Assembly: GCA_040879145.1 (NCBI GenBank)
Contig: JBBDKX010000006.1
Span: 1 to 43,746, forward strand
Direction of reading: 5' to 3'
DNA: 43,746 nucleotides
Source: Candidatus Spechtbacterales bacterium
GTDB lineage: Bacteria; Patescibacteriota; Minisyncoccia; Spechtbacterales; 2-12-FULL-38-22
The notes under the pieces were generated by a model. The model saw only the letters and a program-made list of their open reading frames with translations, was not told the origin of the DNA and did no database searches. How positions within the stretch are numbered: the first letter of the stretch is position 1; each line of letters opens with the position of its first letter. A program made the translations under genes and the position numbers. Below, in pieces: positions 37,655 to 43,436 of the stretch.

Positions 37655-39346
37655 TTAGTTTGGTACCTCTTCCTCTGGTATGTCCTGGTCCAACAGAGAG
37701 CTTGTGAATATGTCTATTCCTGTAAGTTTTGTCTGTTCCAAAACATTGAGCTGGTTTTGAATATCTTCGGCATCCGGCACAAGACCTATCTGAAATTCTA
37801 CTGTCCTTTCGGGATATACAAAACCGACCCCGACACCCACATCTCCCAACTCCCAGACTACAGTATTTGTATCTGAGAGATACCTTACATCCTCCGCTGC
37901 GGGAGATGTATTACTCTGCCACACAACATAGTCAGGCAACACCGCCTCAACTTTTCCTAAACGCACAGCATTTGTTGTATTCTCTACAGTCCAGCGTACA
38001 GTATATGTTGAAAGCTGGTTCGGTACCGGCGGATGAGGGCCTGTATTATCAAAAGAACCTCCCTGCCTGTAAACAGACTGTTCTAACTCAAATCTAGTGG
38101 AAAGCTTGACGGACAAGGTGTTTTCAGCCTGCAGAACCGCTCCGTTAAGGGCCAGGCTTTCTTTTTGAGAGCGTAGTGTTGTAATAATATTTATAGTTTT
38201 GTTTGTATCCTGAACATTTGCCGGTTCTATATTGGAACGTACGTTAAAAGAAAAACTTACTGTACCCGTTTCTTCAACATCAGTAAACCGCAATGAAGAA
38301 AGCTGGGCCTGGGTCCACTCAATTGTCTTTGCTTCTGAATCTACAATACCTCCCGAAGCTGCTATGGTTGAAAAATCTACAAGACTTTCAGGAAGCGAAA
38401 CTCTAAGCAGGGCATCTTCAAGTGGGACGTTTGCCTTATTGGTATATGTTATTCTTACAGTTGCACGCTCTCCCGGATCTACAAAGCCGCGTGCGGGATT
38501 AACCATGCTCTGATTAAGCACAAGAGGAGATTCCGATATACCTATTGCACGCTCTGCTGTGTGCAGAGGTAAAAATGAAATACCATCGCGTTTGCCAAGA
38601 GATACTTTAAAGAGAGGTTCCCCTTCATATGATGAAAGCCTACCTCTAAATTCACGCTTAACGGTTTGACCCTCTTTAAGCTCCCCTATCCTCCACACTG
38701 TTTCAAAGGCAAATGCTTCGCTAACCTCCTGCATGCTAAAGCCTTGAGGGGCGTCCAGTCTAAGAAAAAGGGGGGATGTTTCTATGTCAGAATGGGGAAC
38801 AACTATAATACTTCCGCGAACATCCTGATCCGCGTAAACATTCTGAGGCAAATCAAATACAATAGAAACATCTAATTTTCCTATTATAAGCTCTAAAGAT
38901 GTTGTTTCTACAAATCGCGCTGAAAGCCCCTCGGGCGAATAATCCAGTCGCGCGTTTAAAGATTCTTTGCCGTTGGTGGAAGAGACAACAATTTTAAAAG
39001 ATACCTCTCTCTTAGAGCCTGGGGGTAAAATATCTATACCCGAACGTATATCTTCTAATCCTTCCAAAACTTCTACCGTTGATGGCGTTTCAAGAGTTAG
39101 ATTCAAATCCTGAAGAGCTTTGTCGGAATTATTGCTAATTATAAGCTTGTAGTCCTCTGCTTTTCCGTTCTCAACCTGTCCGGGGCCTTCTATTTCCAGT
39201 TCCACATTTCTTGTTGAAAAATCTCCGCGTCCCAGCCATATAAAAACAGCTGCTACAACAAGAGTTAAAAGAGAAAGCGGCATTAGATGCCATACTTTAA
39301 TTTTAGATTTTTTATTTATTTTTTGCTTCTTAAGTTTTTTAGACAT
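37655..39346 (-). CDS. Membrane-anchored surface protein with repeated beta-sandwich domains
   Basis: This 563-aa protein has a very basic N-terminus (about 1-17), one membrane helix (about 18-38), then an extracellular part rich in beta strands. Several segments recall DUF11/CARDB-like domains (LIISNNSDKALQDLNLTLE, VNPARGFVDPGERATVRITYTNKA, TYTVRWTVENTT). An adhesin or envelope-scaffold role is inferred. It starts 8 bp inside the end of recO (overlap) and precedes glyQS, a curious place for a surface protein among housekeeping genes. Confidence 0.72.
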   Translation of the reverse strand: MSKKLKKQKINKKSKIKVWHLMPLSLLTLVVAAVFIWLGRGDFSTRNVELEIEGPGQVENGKAEDYKLIISNNSDKALQDLNLTLETPSTVEVLEGLEDIRSGIDILPPGSKREVSFKIVVSSTNGKESLNARLDYSPEGLSARFVETTSLELIIGKLDVSIVFDLPQNVYADQDVRGSIIVVPHSDIETSPLFLRLDAPQGFSMQEVSEAFAFETVWRIGELKEGQTVKREFRGRLSSYEGEPLFKVSLGKRDGISFLPLHTAERAIGISESPLVLNQSMVNPARGFVDPGERATVRITYTNKANVPLEDALLRVSLPESLVDFSTIAASGGIVDSEAKTIEWTQAQLSSLRFTDVEETGTVSFSFNVRSNIEPANVQDTNKTINIITTLRSQKESLALNGAVLQAENTLSVKLSTRFELEQSVYRQGGSFDNTGPHPPVPNQLSTYTVRWTVENTTNAVRLGKVEAVLPDYVVWQSNTSPAAEDVRYLSDTNTVVWELGDVGVGVGFVYPERTVEFQIGLVPDAEDIQNQLNVLEQTKLTGIDIFTSSLLDQDIPEEEVPN

Positions 39347-39917
39347 GATTTTTTAAGCCAAAGAATTCTACTGAGTACTCAAGCTTGTTCTGGAGTAATC
39401 TGCGGATATAAATATCCAGCTGACGGGCATTTTTTACTCTCTCAAAATTTAAATTTTGCGGAGCAAGTCCTAAAATGCCCAAGAGTGATATCAACCATTC
39501 CTTCTCTGCCTTCCAAAGCTCTTCCCTGCTGCTATCTTTTTCCGCGACGGATGAAGCATCGCGTAACACTTTACACAAAAGTTCCCACATCTCTTCATCT
39601 TTTTGTCCCTCGTAGGTTATTTTATCGCAAAGCTGTAAAAATGACATTACATACGCTAAAGCTGTTATATTATCCGATATGGCGGGGTGTCCCTTTATAC
39701 TCTTTATACCAGAAAATATGTATCCTGTGCGAGATATAACAAAATTAAAGCGTATAATTGACGGGTTGTGAAGGAATATGCCCTGTTTTGTAGTTATTTT
39801 TTTGGAGCTGCGCGCTTTTATTATCATTTTACCAAAATCGCGCGTATAGCATGAAACTAGTTCATCAGCTTCTCCTGTGGGACGGCTTCCTAAAACAATG
39901 GCATCTGTGAAATACAT
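39339..39917 (-). CDS. recO: DNA repair protein RecO (short)
   Basis: This 192-aa protein has an N-terminal OB fold (TDAIVLGSRPTGEADELVSCYTRDFGKMIIKARSSKK) typical of RecO, and a helical C-terminal part. The family zinc-finger Cys cluster is absent, and the protein is about 50 residues shorter than E. coli RecO. RecO helps load RecA onto SSB-coated gaps. It starts 6 bp after ileS and overlaps the surface protein gene by 8 nt, so the three are one transcript. Confidence 0.85.
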   Translation of the reverse strand: MYFTDAIVLGSRPTGEADELVSCYTRDFGKMIIKARSSKKITTKQGIFLHNPSIIRFNFVISRTGYIFSGIKSIKGHPAISDNITALAYVMSFLQLCDKITYEGQKDEEMWELLCKVLRDASSVAEKDSSREELWKAEKEWLISLLGILGLAPQNLNFERVKNARQLDIYIRRLLQNKLEYSVEFFGLKNHV

Positions 39918-39923
39918 AATTTA

Positions 39924-42900
39924 TTATAACTTCTTAATACCCACCCTGACTTTATGCTTTGGGTCCCAGTTGTATTCAGAAAACATATCGTAGGCGCGAT
40001 CTTCCACGTTAGATATCTCCGCAACATCAGAGGAGGTCGTTTTTGACATCTCTTCTTCGTACTTTAAAAGCTTGCCTGCAAGCTCCGAGCCAAGAGAGTA
40101 CTCAACCTGTATTTTATCGGCCGGCTTTAAACCAAGCTTGCGTCTCATGTTTTGTATGTGGCGCATCATCTCTCTTGCCTGTCCCTCTACAGCAAGCGCT
40201 TCCGAAAATGTAACCTTTAAAGCAATCTTACCCTCAACAACCCAGTCACTGCTTTCGGTTTGAACATCAGAAAATGAAACGACATCCTTAACATTAATCT
40301 CGTCTTTTAAAATATTTTTTAGTTCATCTGAAATATCTTTCGGCACAGCAAGAACCTCAAGAGGTTGGCGTACTTTTAATCCGTTGTCAGAACGAAGCCG
40401 AAGAGCAACTTGAGACCATGAACGAATATCCCGCATAACTGCAACAACTTCCTCATCCTTTTTAGAAAATTTTTCGTATTCAGGATAATCCTCCCAGTGT
40501 ACGCTTTCATTCCCGGTCTTATTTAACCCTTGCCATATATGTTCAGATACAAAGGGGATAAAAGGGGCCGTCATTTTTGAAGTTTCATTCAAAATAAATG
40601 CCAGCGTGTCGGAGGCCTCATCTTTTTCATCTTTTGTTTCAGGCCTCTGAAGACGCTCTCTGGACCGGCGTATATACCAATTAGAAACATCTTCAACAAC
40701 AAACTCTTCCAAAGCGCGTGCCGCGTCAAGAATGTTGTAATCATCTATACACCTTACCACCTTTTCGTTAACTTCCTTAAGTTTAGCAAATATCCACTGA
40801 TCTAATACATTTTTACTTGTCTTCGCGGAAAAATCATCAGATGGCTTTACGTCAGGAGCATAAGTATTGAGGAATGTGTAGGAATTTGCAAACGTAGAAA
40901 GAAATCTCTGCCATCTTTCTTTTACATCCTGCTCACTAAATAACTTCGCGTCTCCGGGCTGGTTAACTGTAAAAAAGTACCAGCGCACAGCATCCATGCC
41001 GTATTTTGATGCCAACTCTTTTGGGTCAATGATATTTCCCTTGCTTTTAGACATCTTTTGTCCATTATCGTCCAAAACTATTCCAAGAGTAATAACATTC
41101 TTATATGAAGGAGCTTTTCCGAGGATAACCGAAACTGCCAACATCGTGTAAAACCATCCGCGAGTCTGATCCATTGCCTCTGTTATATAATCAGCGGGAT
41201 ATGCTGTATTTTTGTCTATAGTATCTTTATTTTCAAAAGGGTAATGCTGTTGAGCAAAAGGCATGGAGCCGGAATCAAACCAAACATCTACAAGATCTTC
41301 TACCCTTCGCATGTTTTTACCGCAGGCTTTACAAAGGAACTCTATATCATCAACAAAGGGTCTATGAAAATCTAATTCACCCTCGTTGTTATAAGGAAAC
41401 TTGGCGTACTCCACTCTTCTCAACTGCGCGTTCTGAGGATACTCACCCTTTCTCTTCCACTCAACACCCTCATTTATCGTAAGGCCCCCAAGAGATGCCT
41501 CAAGAACCCAAAGCGGATGCCCGTGGCTTACCAGCAATATTTTTTTACCGCTGTATTTTTCTTCCAAAGCGCTTATCGCCTCAAGCATTCTCTTTCTTAC
41601 ACCTGCTAATGTTTCTCCTTTGGGAGCGCCTTTTGTAAAGTTATAATTTTTTTCTCCTTTAAAATAGTCCGAATAACCCTGTTCCGATTTGCCTTCATAT
41701 ATGCCCACACCAATTTCTTTTAGTAGGTCTTCCGTTATTACATCCACGCCGAGTGCTTCTCCAACCATTTGAGCAGTCTCGCTTGTTCTTCCTAGTGGTG
41801 ATGTAACCACAATATCTACACCACCCTCTTTTTTAAGCTGTTCTATTGATTCTTTGACCTGCTCCACGCCTTTTTTACTTAACGTGTCTAGGGGGTGTTT
41901 TTTTGTAGTATCGCTTATCAATATTTGGGCCTCATTGTTTTCTGAATGGCCGTGGCGCATAAGCCAGTATTCATTTTTTCCTTTTGTGAGTTTTGCAAGA
42001 TCATCTCTGGACCCTACAACATCCACATGCTCACACTCTTCGCATTTCCAAACAGGAAGAGGTGTACCCCAGTACCTGGAACGAGAAAACGCCCAGTCTT
42101 TTACATTGCGCAACCACTCACCAAACCTTCCCTCTTTAATATGTTCGGGAATCCAATTTATCTTATTATTTGCCTTTATAAGATCGTCTTTTAAGCTACT
42201 CATTCCTATAAACCATGAGTCTGTAGCGTAATAAAGGAGTGGTTCGCTACACCTCCAGCAGAAAGGGTATGAGTGCTCGTAGGGCTGAACTTTGTAAAGC
42301 AAGTTGCTTTTTTCCAGGTATTTTATAATATCCTTTTCTGCCTCTTTCACATTCCTCCCCTCAAATTCTTTAACAAATTCATTGAAATTTCCAGCCTCAT
42401 CAACTGTGTGCACTGTGGGCAACCCAAACTCCTTCCCAAGCTGGTAGTCATCCTCTCCGTACATTACAGCAGTATGCACGATACCTGTTCCATCTTCTGT
42501 GCTTACAAAATCGGCTACATACACCTTGTGGGAAGTTTCGGACCGGAGTTCTTTAATATCGAACAAGGGTTCATATTCAAGGCCCACAAGGTCCTTGCCT
42601 TTTATTTCACTTAACACATCATACTCATCTTCCAATATTTCAAGCAATTCTGTTGCAAGTACGTAATATTCCCCATCCTGCCTTACAACCGAATATTTTA
42701 TATCTTTACCCACAGCCAAAGCAACGTTTCCCGGAAGAGTCCAGGGTGTTGTTGTCCATGCCAAAAAGTATATTTTGGGTTCCACCTCTTCAAGTTTTAG
42801 TTTACTAAACGCCTCGGGATCGCGCAGTTTGAACTTTATATAAACGCTCTGGTCTGTAACATCTTTGTATCCTTGTGCAACCTCGTGGGATGAAAGGGCA

Positions 42901-43436
42901 GTTCCGCACCTCATACACCTTGGAACAACCTTGTGGCCTTCGTAGAGCAGTTCTTTTTCATATGCCTGTTTCATTATCCACCACAAGCTTTCCATATATA
43001 GCGGATCTAATGTTATATACGGATTTTCCATATCAATCCAAAAGCCCATGCGCTCTGTGAGTTCTTCCCACTCTTTCTGATAGCGCCACACACTCTCGCG
43101 GCACTTAGCATTAAACTCGGCGATGCCGTATTTTTCAATATCTTTTTTACTGTTTAGTCCCAGTTCTTTTTCCACCTGTATTTCTACCGGCAACCCGTGC
43201 GTATCCCAACCGGCGCGGCGCTCTACGTGAAAACCGCGCATTGTTTTATATCTACATACTATATCTTTATAAGAACGAGCCTCTACGTGATGAAAACCCG
43301 GCATACCATTTGCAGTTGGCGGACCTTCATAAAACACAAAGCTTCGGTCTTTTGACCGGTTTTCAACACTTTTTTTGAAAGCCTGTATTTCTCTCCAGTT
43401 TTTTAATATTTTTTCTTCAAGTTCGGGGAAATTCAT
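39924..43436 (-). CDS. ileS: Isoleucyl-tRNA synthetase (type 2) with inserted histidine-phosphatase domain
   Basis: This 1170-aa protein has class Ia motifs PTANGMPGFHH (40-50, HIGH equivalent), the CP1 editing domain (WTTTPWTLPGN, 227-237), RYWGTPLPVW (454-463), DVWFDSGSMP (717-726) and KMSKSKGN (794-801). It is type 2, the eukaryote-like class often mupirocin-resistant. Between about 477 and 688 a full histidine-phosphatase domain interrupts the catalytic core. It carries LMRHGHSEN (R494, H495), SPLGRTSETAQ (R550), E574 and LLVSHGH (H638). IleRS sequence continues normally afterwards. Length is roughly 200 aa above the usual. It is followed at 6 bp by recO. Confidence 0.94.
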   Translation of the reverse strand: MNFPELEEKILKNWREIQAFKKSVENRSKDRSFVFYEGPPTANGMPGFHHVEARSYKDIVCRYKTMRGFHVERRAGWDTHGLPVEIQVEKELGLNSKKDIEKYGIAEFNAKCRESVWRYQKEWEELTERMGFWIDMENPYITLDPLYMESLWWIMKQAYEKELLYEGHKVVPRCMRCGTALSSHEVAQGYKDVTDQSVYIKFKLRDPEAFSKLKLEEVEPKIYFLAWTTTPWTLPGNVALAVGKDIKYSVVRQDGEYYVLATELLEILEDEYDVLSEIKGKDLVGLEYEPLFDIKELRSETSHKVYVADFVSTEDGTGIVHTAVMYGEDDYQLGKEFGLPTVHTVDEAGNFNEFVKEFEGRNVKEAEKDIIKYLEKSNLLYKVQPYEHSYPFCWRCSEPLLYYATDSWFIGMSSLKDDLIKANNKINWIPEHIKEGRFGEWLRNVKDWAFSRSRYWGTPLPVWKCEECEHVDVVGSRDDLAKLTKGKNEYWLMRHGHSENNEAQILISDTTKKHPLDTLSKKGVEQVKESIEQLKKEGGVDIVVTSPLGRTSETAQMVGEALGVDVITEDLLKEIGVGIYEGKSEQGYSDYFKGEKNYNFTKGAPKGETLAGVRKRMLEAISALEEKYSGKKILLVSHGHPLWVLEASLGGLTINEGVEWKRKGEYPQNAQLRRVEYAKFPYNNEGELDFHRPFVDDIEFLCKACGKNMRRVEDLVDVWFDSGSMPFAQQHYPFENKDTIDKNTAYPADYITEAMDQTRGWFYTMLAVSVILGKAPSYKNVITLGIVLDDNGQKMSKSKGNIIDPKELASKYGMDAVRWYFFTVNQPGDAKLFSEQDVKERWQRFLSTFANSYTFLNTYAPDVKPSDDFSAKTSKNVLDQWIFAKLKEVNEKVVRCIDDYNILDAARALEEFVVEDVSNWYIRRSRERLQRPETKDEKDEASDTLAFILNETSKMTAPFIPFVSEHIWQGLNKTGNESVHWEDYPEYEKFSKKDEEVVAVMRDIRSWSQVALRLRSDNGLKVRQPLEVLAVPKDISDELKNILKDEINVKDVVSFSDVQTESSDWVVEGKIALKVTFSEALAVEGQAREMMRHIQNMRRKLGLKPADKIQVEYSLGSELAGKLLKYEEEMSKTTSSDVAEISNVEDRAYDMFSEYNWDPKHKVRVGIKKL
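41373..42008 (-). other. Histidine-phosphatase domain inserted in ileS (residues about 477-688)
   Basis: This domain has all catalytic elements of the branch 1 phosphoglycerate-mutase-like family. They are the RHG nucleophile motif, the second Arg in SPLGRTSETAQ, the acid/base region EIGVGIYEG and the C-terminal SHGH. It sits between VVGSRDDLAKL and FHRPFVDDIEF, segments that are contiguous in ordinary type 2 IleRS, so it would project from the catalytic core. The reading frame is continuous and the codon use is ordinary. The boundaries are estimates. Confidence 0.88.

Follow-up and report, generated by a model that had tools for sequence, protein, structure and literature searches.

A histidine-phosphatase domain in the zinc-knuckle loop of a patescibacterial isoleucyl-tRNA synthetase

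Aminoacyl-tRNA synthetases with extra domains are already known. Judged by its model title, the family NF040702 (ileS_w_GNAT) is an isoleucyl-tRNA synthetase (IleRS) with an additional small enzyme domain, a GNAT. The bifunctional RNase H/acid phosphatase (NF005567, PRK07238) likewise combines a branch-1 histidine phosphatase with a nucleic-acid enzyme, although the two are fused end to end there and the phosphatase is not inserted into a synthetase. Branch-1 phosphatases such as phosphoserine phosphatase (4ij5), glucosyl-3-phosphoglycerate phosphatase (4qih), PhoE (1h2e) and CobC (6e4b) are stand-alone enzymes. On the synthetase side, the IleRS2 of Priestia megaterium (8c8u, 8c8w; PMC10485003) offers a solved structure, and that publication ties the GXHH signature of IleRS2 to mupirocin hyper-resistance. 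Here, we describe a type 2 IleRS with an inserted histidine-phosphatase (HP) domain, termed HP-IleRS. It is encoded in a window of 43,746 nucleotides (contig JBBDKX010000006.1) from a Candidatus Spechtbacterales bacterium of the class Minisyncoccia, phylum Patescibacteriota.

A single stop-free frame spans the whole gene (Table 1). PF00133 (tRNA-synt_1) matches the protein in two stretches, the best at residues 9-492, and Anticodon_1 lies at residues 879-1028. The ileS model TIGR00392 scores 900.9 bits (cut-off 621.4), also in two stretches, and in the genome search these meet at profile position 509, one on each side of the insert. The source genome (847395 bases in 39 contigs, rated 100% complete) holds one His_Phos_1 match, the insert itself, and one IleRS match over cut-off; weaker IleRS matches sit in other frames. 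Since no other IleRS match exceeds the cut-off and the genome is rated complete, we infer that HP-IleRS charges tRNA-Ile. Past the RecO-like gene follow a 563-aa protein without Pfam match and a gene read as glycyl-tRNA synthetase (GlyRS) by eye. RecO comes after IleRS in 29 of the 64 fused loci with room to see it, counted with a profile built from three sequences that may miss some.

Table 1. Features of the HP-IleRS locus (positions in the window)
Feature	Position	Strand	Basis or remark
IleRS, type 2, 1170 aa, with inserted HP domain	39924..43436	minus	ORF, Pfam and NCBIfam
IleRS N-terminal part, residues 1-476	42009..43436	minus	first catalytic-core half and CP1 editing domain (names by homology)
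Class I signature 1, swapped GFHH (GXHH for HXGH), residues 47-50	43287..43298	minus	sequence
First CxxC of zinc knuckle, C465/C468	42033..42044	minus	zinc binding by homology
Inserted segment, residues 477-688	41373..42008	minus	Pfam and structural alignment
His_Phos_1 domain proper, residues 491-677	41406..41966	minus	Pfam, AF2 pLDDT 95.0
RHG motif, R494-H495, nucleophilic histidine	41952..41957	minus	invariant in 30-insert and 63-protein alignments
R550, second phosphate-binding arginine	41787..41789	minus	invariant in 30-insert and 63-protein alignments
E574, acidic residue	41715..41717	minus	general acid by homology; E 101 / D 4 of 105
H638, second histidine (SHGH)	41523..41525	minus	H in 105/105
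Second CxxC of zinc knuckle, C702/C705	41322..41333	minus	zinc binding by homology
IleRS C-terminal part	39927..41372	minus	second catalytic-core half, KMSKS, anticodon-binding and C-terminal domains
KMSKS signature, residues 794-798	41043..41057	minus	G792 K794 S796 K797 N801 invariant in 63 fused proteins
RecO-like gene directly downstream of IleRS	39339..39917	minus	PF11967 E 1.1e-8

HP-IleRS shares with the Priestia enzyme the fold, the KMSKS signature, the CP1 editing domain and the swapped GXHH signature that PMC10485003 describes for hyper-resistant IleRS2. In contrast, 8c8w has no domain between the parts that match residues 5-476 and 685-1112 of HP-IleRS. Its own residues 470 and 483 form the edges of the gap, so the insert splits apart two segments that lie almost next to each other in another IleRS. 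A first-pass annotation of the window had placed a complete HP domain between normally contiguous segments of the type 2 IleRS core, with boundaries at residues 477 and 688; the gap in the 8c8w alignment confirms this placement. The cysteine pairs before and after the insert are nearly invariant in 63 fused proteins, hence the HP domain has been placed in the zinc-knuckle loop without destroying the knuckle. The insertion is precise: all four knuckle cysteines and both class I catalytic signatures, GFHH and KMSKS, are intact. An AlphaFold2 model of the whole protein, computed from 63 sequences (pLDDT 90.8, pTM 0.85; about 92 across residues 481-680), matches 8c8u with Z 44.3 over 943 aligned residues. 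HP-IleRS is distinct from the GNAT-bearing family, whose model it matches with 367.8 bits (cut-off 1999), and there is no GNAT model among its Pfam matches. An intein was rejected, as the whole-protein Pfam scan at E 0.01 lists no Hint or splicing domain. Scored by script, signature 1 reads HXGH in 56 fused rows, GXHH in 32 and HYGS in one, with 20 unrecognised.

The insert is a clear member of its superfamily. PF00300 (His_Phos_1) scores 112.6 bits (cut-off 21.7, E 2.4e-32), and the RHG motif, second arginine, acidic motif and SHGH that the first-pass annotation had listed as intact correspond to the branch-1 residues R494 H495 G496, R550, E574 and H638, all of which are present. The HP domain modelled alone folds confidently and finds as its best match phosphoserine phosphatase 4ij6 (Z 22.8, 183 aligned residues, rmsd 2.3), bearing out the proposed fold. 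From this Z score downwards the best matching solved structures are superfamily phosphatases and phosphoglycerate mutases, as judged by title over 50 rows. Phosphoserine phosphatase, glucosyl-3-phosphoglycerate phosphatase, PhoE and others reach Z 19-23. The stand-alone enzymes 4ij5, 4qih, 1h2e and 6e4b share the fold and the catalytic residues with the HP domain, but only 21-25% identity in structural alignments. Neither the insert nor any of seven related stand-alone HPs scores over the cut-off of a listed NCBIfam HP model. The best of these models for the insert alone is NF005567 with 85.1 bits against a cut-off of 326, matched through its C-terminal half (positions 179-331 of 378). Assignments as the alpha-ribazole phosphatase CobC (TIGR03162, 66.3 bits, cut-off 162.9) and as the phosphoserine phosphatase PspA (NF045917, 51.1 bits, cut-off 350) were rejected.

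The active site is conserved well beyond the window. N, R, H, R, E and H, along with a few further residues, do not vary across 30 fused inserts. We gathered 149 HP domains for a catalytic-residue count. R, H, R and H are kept in all 105 domains from IleRS proteins with a single HP (97 distinct; the rows include two of the window's own and one locus, L178, with its HP at a different site), and the acid is E in 101 and D in 4. The nine HP domains of IleRS proteins with several HPs keep all four residues together with an E or D. In nine domains of the valyl-tRNA synthetase (ValRS) group R, H and R are kept throughout and the second histidine in eight; L174 has S instead. Among 23 small frames of the stand-alone class the catalytic residues are absent from the alignment in one. 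Within the 63 fused proteins, mean pairwise identity is highest in the catalytic segments (0.52-0.57), followed by CP1 (0.45), the anticodon domain (0.44), HP (0.41) and the C-terminus (0.34). Given this identity and the held catalytic residues, the HP domain is constrained, though less than the synthetase core. Because the catalytic residues are conserved, it is well supported, at the level of sequence, that the HP in or coupled to IleRS and ValRS is a catalytically competent phosphatase.

How far does the fusion extend? The survey covered genomes of the phylum and a similarity scan of genome contigs. With the insert as query, HP matches occur in 230 of 285 class genomes (E 1e-3). To score the fusion itself, 112 class genomes were searched with residues 600-810, a query that crosses the junction. 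Genomes were counted as fused when the match began at query position 12 or lower and so continued from HP into the synthetase, and as unfused when only the synthetase part matched. This gave 73 fused, 32 unfused and 7 unscored genomes (G064, G001, G015, G100, G025, G077, G111); G064 looks fused but is cut by a contig end and was left out of the 73. In the contig scan the best 80 of 476 relatives were taken as named loci. HP lies inside the IleRS frame in 72 of these 80 and stands alone in 8, a proportion biased towards linked HPs because resemblance to a subset of fused HPs decided which loci were kept. Some named loci have rows identical to those of genomes in the class sample and belong to the same genomes, so that the two samples overlap. 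Represented among these best 80 of 476 are Wolfe-, Campbell-, Nealson-, Yonath-, Jorgensen-, Sung-, Taylor-, Kaiser-, Nomura-, Azam-, Niyogi- and Colwellbacteria, names from which we take the class to be Paceibacteria/Parcubacteria. Three of the fused loci come from records titled complete genome (AP024682.1, CP011209.1, CP011215.1). Two loci are peculiar. L089, from a record titled Spirochaetia bacterium, encodes a fused IleRS, but its HP clusters with one from Wolfebacteria and the record is probably a mislabelled or mixed bin, and L197 (G087) has two different partial IleRS-like frames on one short contig that run off both of its ends.

HP also occurs as a gene of its own. In all eight non-fused named loci (among the best 80 of 476) it directly precedes an unfused IleRS encoded on that strand, with frames, counted stop to stop, that overlap or are at most 33 nt apart. 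The same order is found in G017, G044, G089, G241, G226, G192, G121 and G079; G121 and the named locus L081 have identical tree rows and appear to be one locus. Among the 32 unfused class genomes, four (G017, G044, G089, G079) have HP directly upstream and G040 has it about 850 nt upstream, in G003 and G087 the contig ends upstream of IleRS, and in the remaining 25 the stretch read ahead of IleRS, at least 582 nt long, contains no HP. The pairing is therefore dispensable in many lineages. In family f51 a related HP is located elsewhere than IleRS (G068, G133, G246; G068 is one of the 25). The neighbours of one unlinked HP in f51, an NTP transferase, a dehydrogenase and a PD-(D/E)XK nuclease, point to no clear function. 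Outside the class, some related single HPs sit on other contigs than IleRS. In G203 (L162), HP follows ArgRS, and behind it come RecO, a protein of 558 aa and a frame that looks by eye like the beginning of GlyRS. This parallels the order in the window, with HP in the place of IleRS. Since the IleRS of G203 is unfused and on another contig, HP activity does not seem to have to sit inside IleRS.

In the phylum as a whole HP matches were found in 262 of 379 genomes (E 1e-10), and twenty selected HP regions were fetched to read their architecture. L167-L170 and L174-L176 encode valyl-tRNA synthetases with HP (NCBIfam valS over cut-off), L180 is an HP synthetase with Val_tRNA-synt_C, and L179 is valyl-type by motif only. 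Families f149, f218 and f128 have two or three HPs per IleRS; IleRS frames with two or three HPs are encoded at L163 (G509), L164 (G583), L165 (G524) and L166 (G621). Mapped on the window protein, the HPs use three approximate sites: the knuckle loop (476-710), a position after the DxWFxSG motif (about 735-745) and one after KMSKS (about 861-873). Thus the HP insertion in IleRS reported by the first-pass annotation is real, but a frame limited to an IleRS insert was too narrow and has to include ValRS, tandem inserts and the upstream gene.

Other enzymes have entered these synthetases as well. An IleRS without HP in G024 (L147:1865-2281) carries a NUDIX domain in its CP1 region, with a Nudix box intact by eye. 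As a general alternative to HP, NUDIX insertion was rejected: 15 matches in 14 of 270 class genomes (E 1e-15) include only the G024 frame of IleRS size, the rest being in a 750-aa frame (G200) or in frames of 141-246 aa. L178 (G328) is an IleRS with GNAT plus HP, and L179 (G625) combines a valyl-type synthetase with a serine hydrolase and HP.

The trees we computed were quick ones, with SH-aLRT support only and midpoint rooting, and many of their inner branches are weak. Most upstream HPs group within the class IleRS HPs on the HP tree (111 rows), and most ValRS and multi-HP domains lie across the midpoint root from these. On the IleRS tree (100 rows) the fused proteins fall into two deep clades; counted over the branches with good support, no fewer than 7 changes are required. 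When 83 IleRS-linked HPs are labelled by the motif of their synthetase (51 HXGH, 32 GXHH), 16 changes are needed on the HP tree, and an AU test rejects a clean HXGH/GXHH split (p 0.0003; rows with unrecognised motif, 20 fused and 8 upstream, the one fused HYGS, loci from L163 on, L001, gap-rich rows and exact duplicates were left out). The label is still clustered, as none of 500 shuffles was as low. Exchange between HP and synthetase has therefore been repeated but not free, and from the discordance of the two trees it follows that HP has been coupled to different IleRS bodies. The histories of HP and synthetase body thus partly differ, through what may be recombination, replacement or repeated capture.

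With HP inside IleRS or in a separate gene beside it, a second job linked to the reading of the genetic code is suggested. We lean, tentatively and at somewhat less than an even chance, towards an active HP that clears a phosphorylated compound at or near IleRS or ValRS, beside the charging reaction. The recurrent coupling to IleRS, as insert or upstream gene, and to ValRS speaks for this, as do the conserved catalytic residues, the tandem HPs, the three insertion sites, the discordant trees and the place of the genome's sole HP match in its sole IleRS over cut-off. Against it speak the 25 unfused genomes with no HP read upstream, the lower conservation of HP than of the synthetase core, the related HPs away from IleRS in G203, in f51 and outside the class, the second histidine lost in L174, the HPs fused to membrane proteins and the bias in the choice of the named loci. 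On this view IleRS took up a branch-1 HP and kept it, as a stable domain, in the loop of its zinc knuckle. The first-pass annotation had suggested that the domain could act on a phosphorylated or adenylylated by-product near the active site, sense phosphate metabolites or regulate charging, each of which is a candidate role. By analogy to its family it would hydrolyse a phosphomonoester via a phospho-His495 intermediate with E574 as the acid. Less certainly, its substrate might be a small phosphorylated compound, either a by-product or an inhibitory mimic of isoleucine and valine charging. Clearance would then happen at the synthetase or in a fixed ratio to it, and HP would serve as a clean-up activity alongside aminoacylation and CP1 editing.

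The strongest competitor to this clean-up role, somewhat less likely in our judgement, is that HP is a housekeeping phosphatase of a reduced genome for a substrate unrelated to tRNA charging and that IleRS is just a well-expressed host tolerant of insertions. That the insert is the sole HP match of the source genome would fit, as would the G203 locus with its unfused IleRS elsewhere, the unlinked relatives in f51 and the variety of small-molecule phosphatases and mutases among the structural neighbours. Moreover, related HPs are fused to membrane proteins in the phylum, to a VTT-domain protein (Pfam) in L171 (G538) and to an MFS transporter in L173 (G586), so coupling need not mean a translation-related substrate; L172 (G450) has a similar length to L171 and a closely related HP. 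However, HP returns to the same partners, inserted in or upstream of IleRS and in ValRS, at several sites and in tandem, and the discordant HP and IleRS trees suggest that the coupling was re-made, or kept when the IleRS body changed.

Some branch-1 histidine phosphatases act on proteins, for example PGAM5. HP might hence be a regulatory protein or RNA phosphatase that targets the synthetase, another translation protein or a damaged tRNA end, and its position within the core would be compatible with such a role. The closest matches in sequence and fold are mostly small-molecule phosphatases and mutases, which makes a regulatory role improbable. Still less probable is that HP hydrolyses pyrophosphate or AMP from charging and so drives the reaction. 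Both products arise at the site, and the family I pyrophosphatase PF00719 has matches in only 25 of 112 class genomes (24 over cut-off). Yet the source genome itself has a PF00719 match, and an H+-pyrophosphatase match is present in 66 of the 112. One or the other of these two families, which are those covered, occurs in 62 of 73 fused and 19 of 32 unfused genomes (kinship uncorrected), the opposite of replacement. Since pyrophosphatase is the commoner in fused genomes, the fusion does not compensate for a lost one, and the idea that HP replaces it is unsupported. We know of no histidine phosphatase that uses pyrophosphate. H+-pyrophosphatase taken singly is commoner with the fusion (51 of 73 fused, 11 of 32 unfused; Fisher p 0.001, kinship uncorrected). 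The source genome has a very divergent H+-pyrophosphatase-like frame (G000:C31:8741-10387, best E 1.8e-9), whereas most other genomes with this enzyme give strong matches.

Loop insertion should be structurally cheap, and HP could in principle be an inactive structural or tRNA-binding spacer. With the catalytic residues kept in all 105 domains from single-HP IleRS, as the comparison across homologues suggested by the first-pass annotation brought out, we regard this as highly unlikely. A phosphoglycerate mutase in disguise we find even harder to credit: the archaeal dPGM model NF038349 is among the best matches of the insert, but its 78.0 bits stand against a cut-off of 225, TIGR01258 gives 27.6 against 81.7, and the source genome has a cofactor-independent mutase (TIGR01307, 602 bits, cut-off 330.65), so that this role was rejected. 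An assembly chimera or frame error, the concern for which the first-pass annotation had proposed a look at relatives, is excluded for practical purposes because the identical junction recurs in 73 of 112 class genomes and in 72 of the 80 named loci (best 80 of 476), three of them from complete-genome records.

We found no description of an HP-IleRS or HP-ValRS in the literature searched; subscription papers, preprints and domain-architecture databases lay outside the search and may contain one. In about two thirds of the sampled class members, the catalytic core of the synthetase houses a phosphatase whose active site is intact. A wider proposal, which we consider speculative and doubtful as a whole, would be that branched-chain synthetases of Patescibacteria have a third catalytic function, in which a phosphohydrolase, built into IleRS and ValRS or expressed together with them, breaks down a phosphorylated by-product or an adenylate-like toxin there. 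The NUDIX, GNAT and serine hydrolase inserts would then be alternative solutions, and HP the constant partner while IleRS bodies swap. The wide occurrence of the fusion, together with the return of HP in ValRS and next to IleRS genes that lack the insert, points to a chemical problem of isoleucine and valine charging, or to a regulatory link. Patescibacteria are very small bacteria that have few enzymes and yet keep HP, and H495 gives a testable handle on their poorly understood metabolism.
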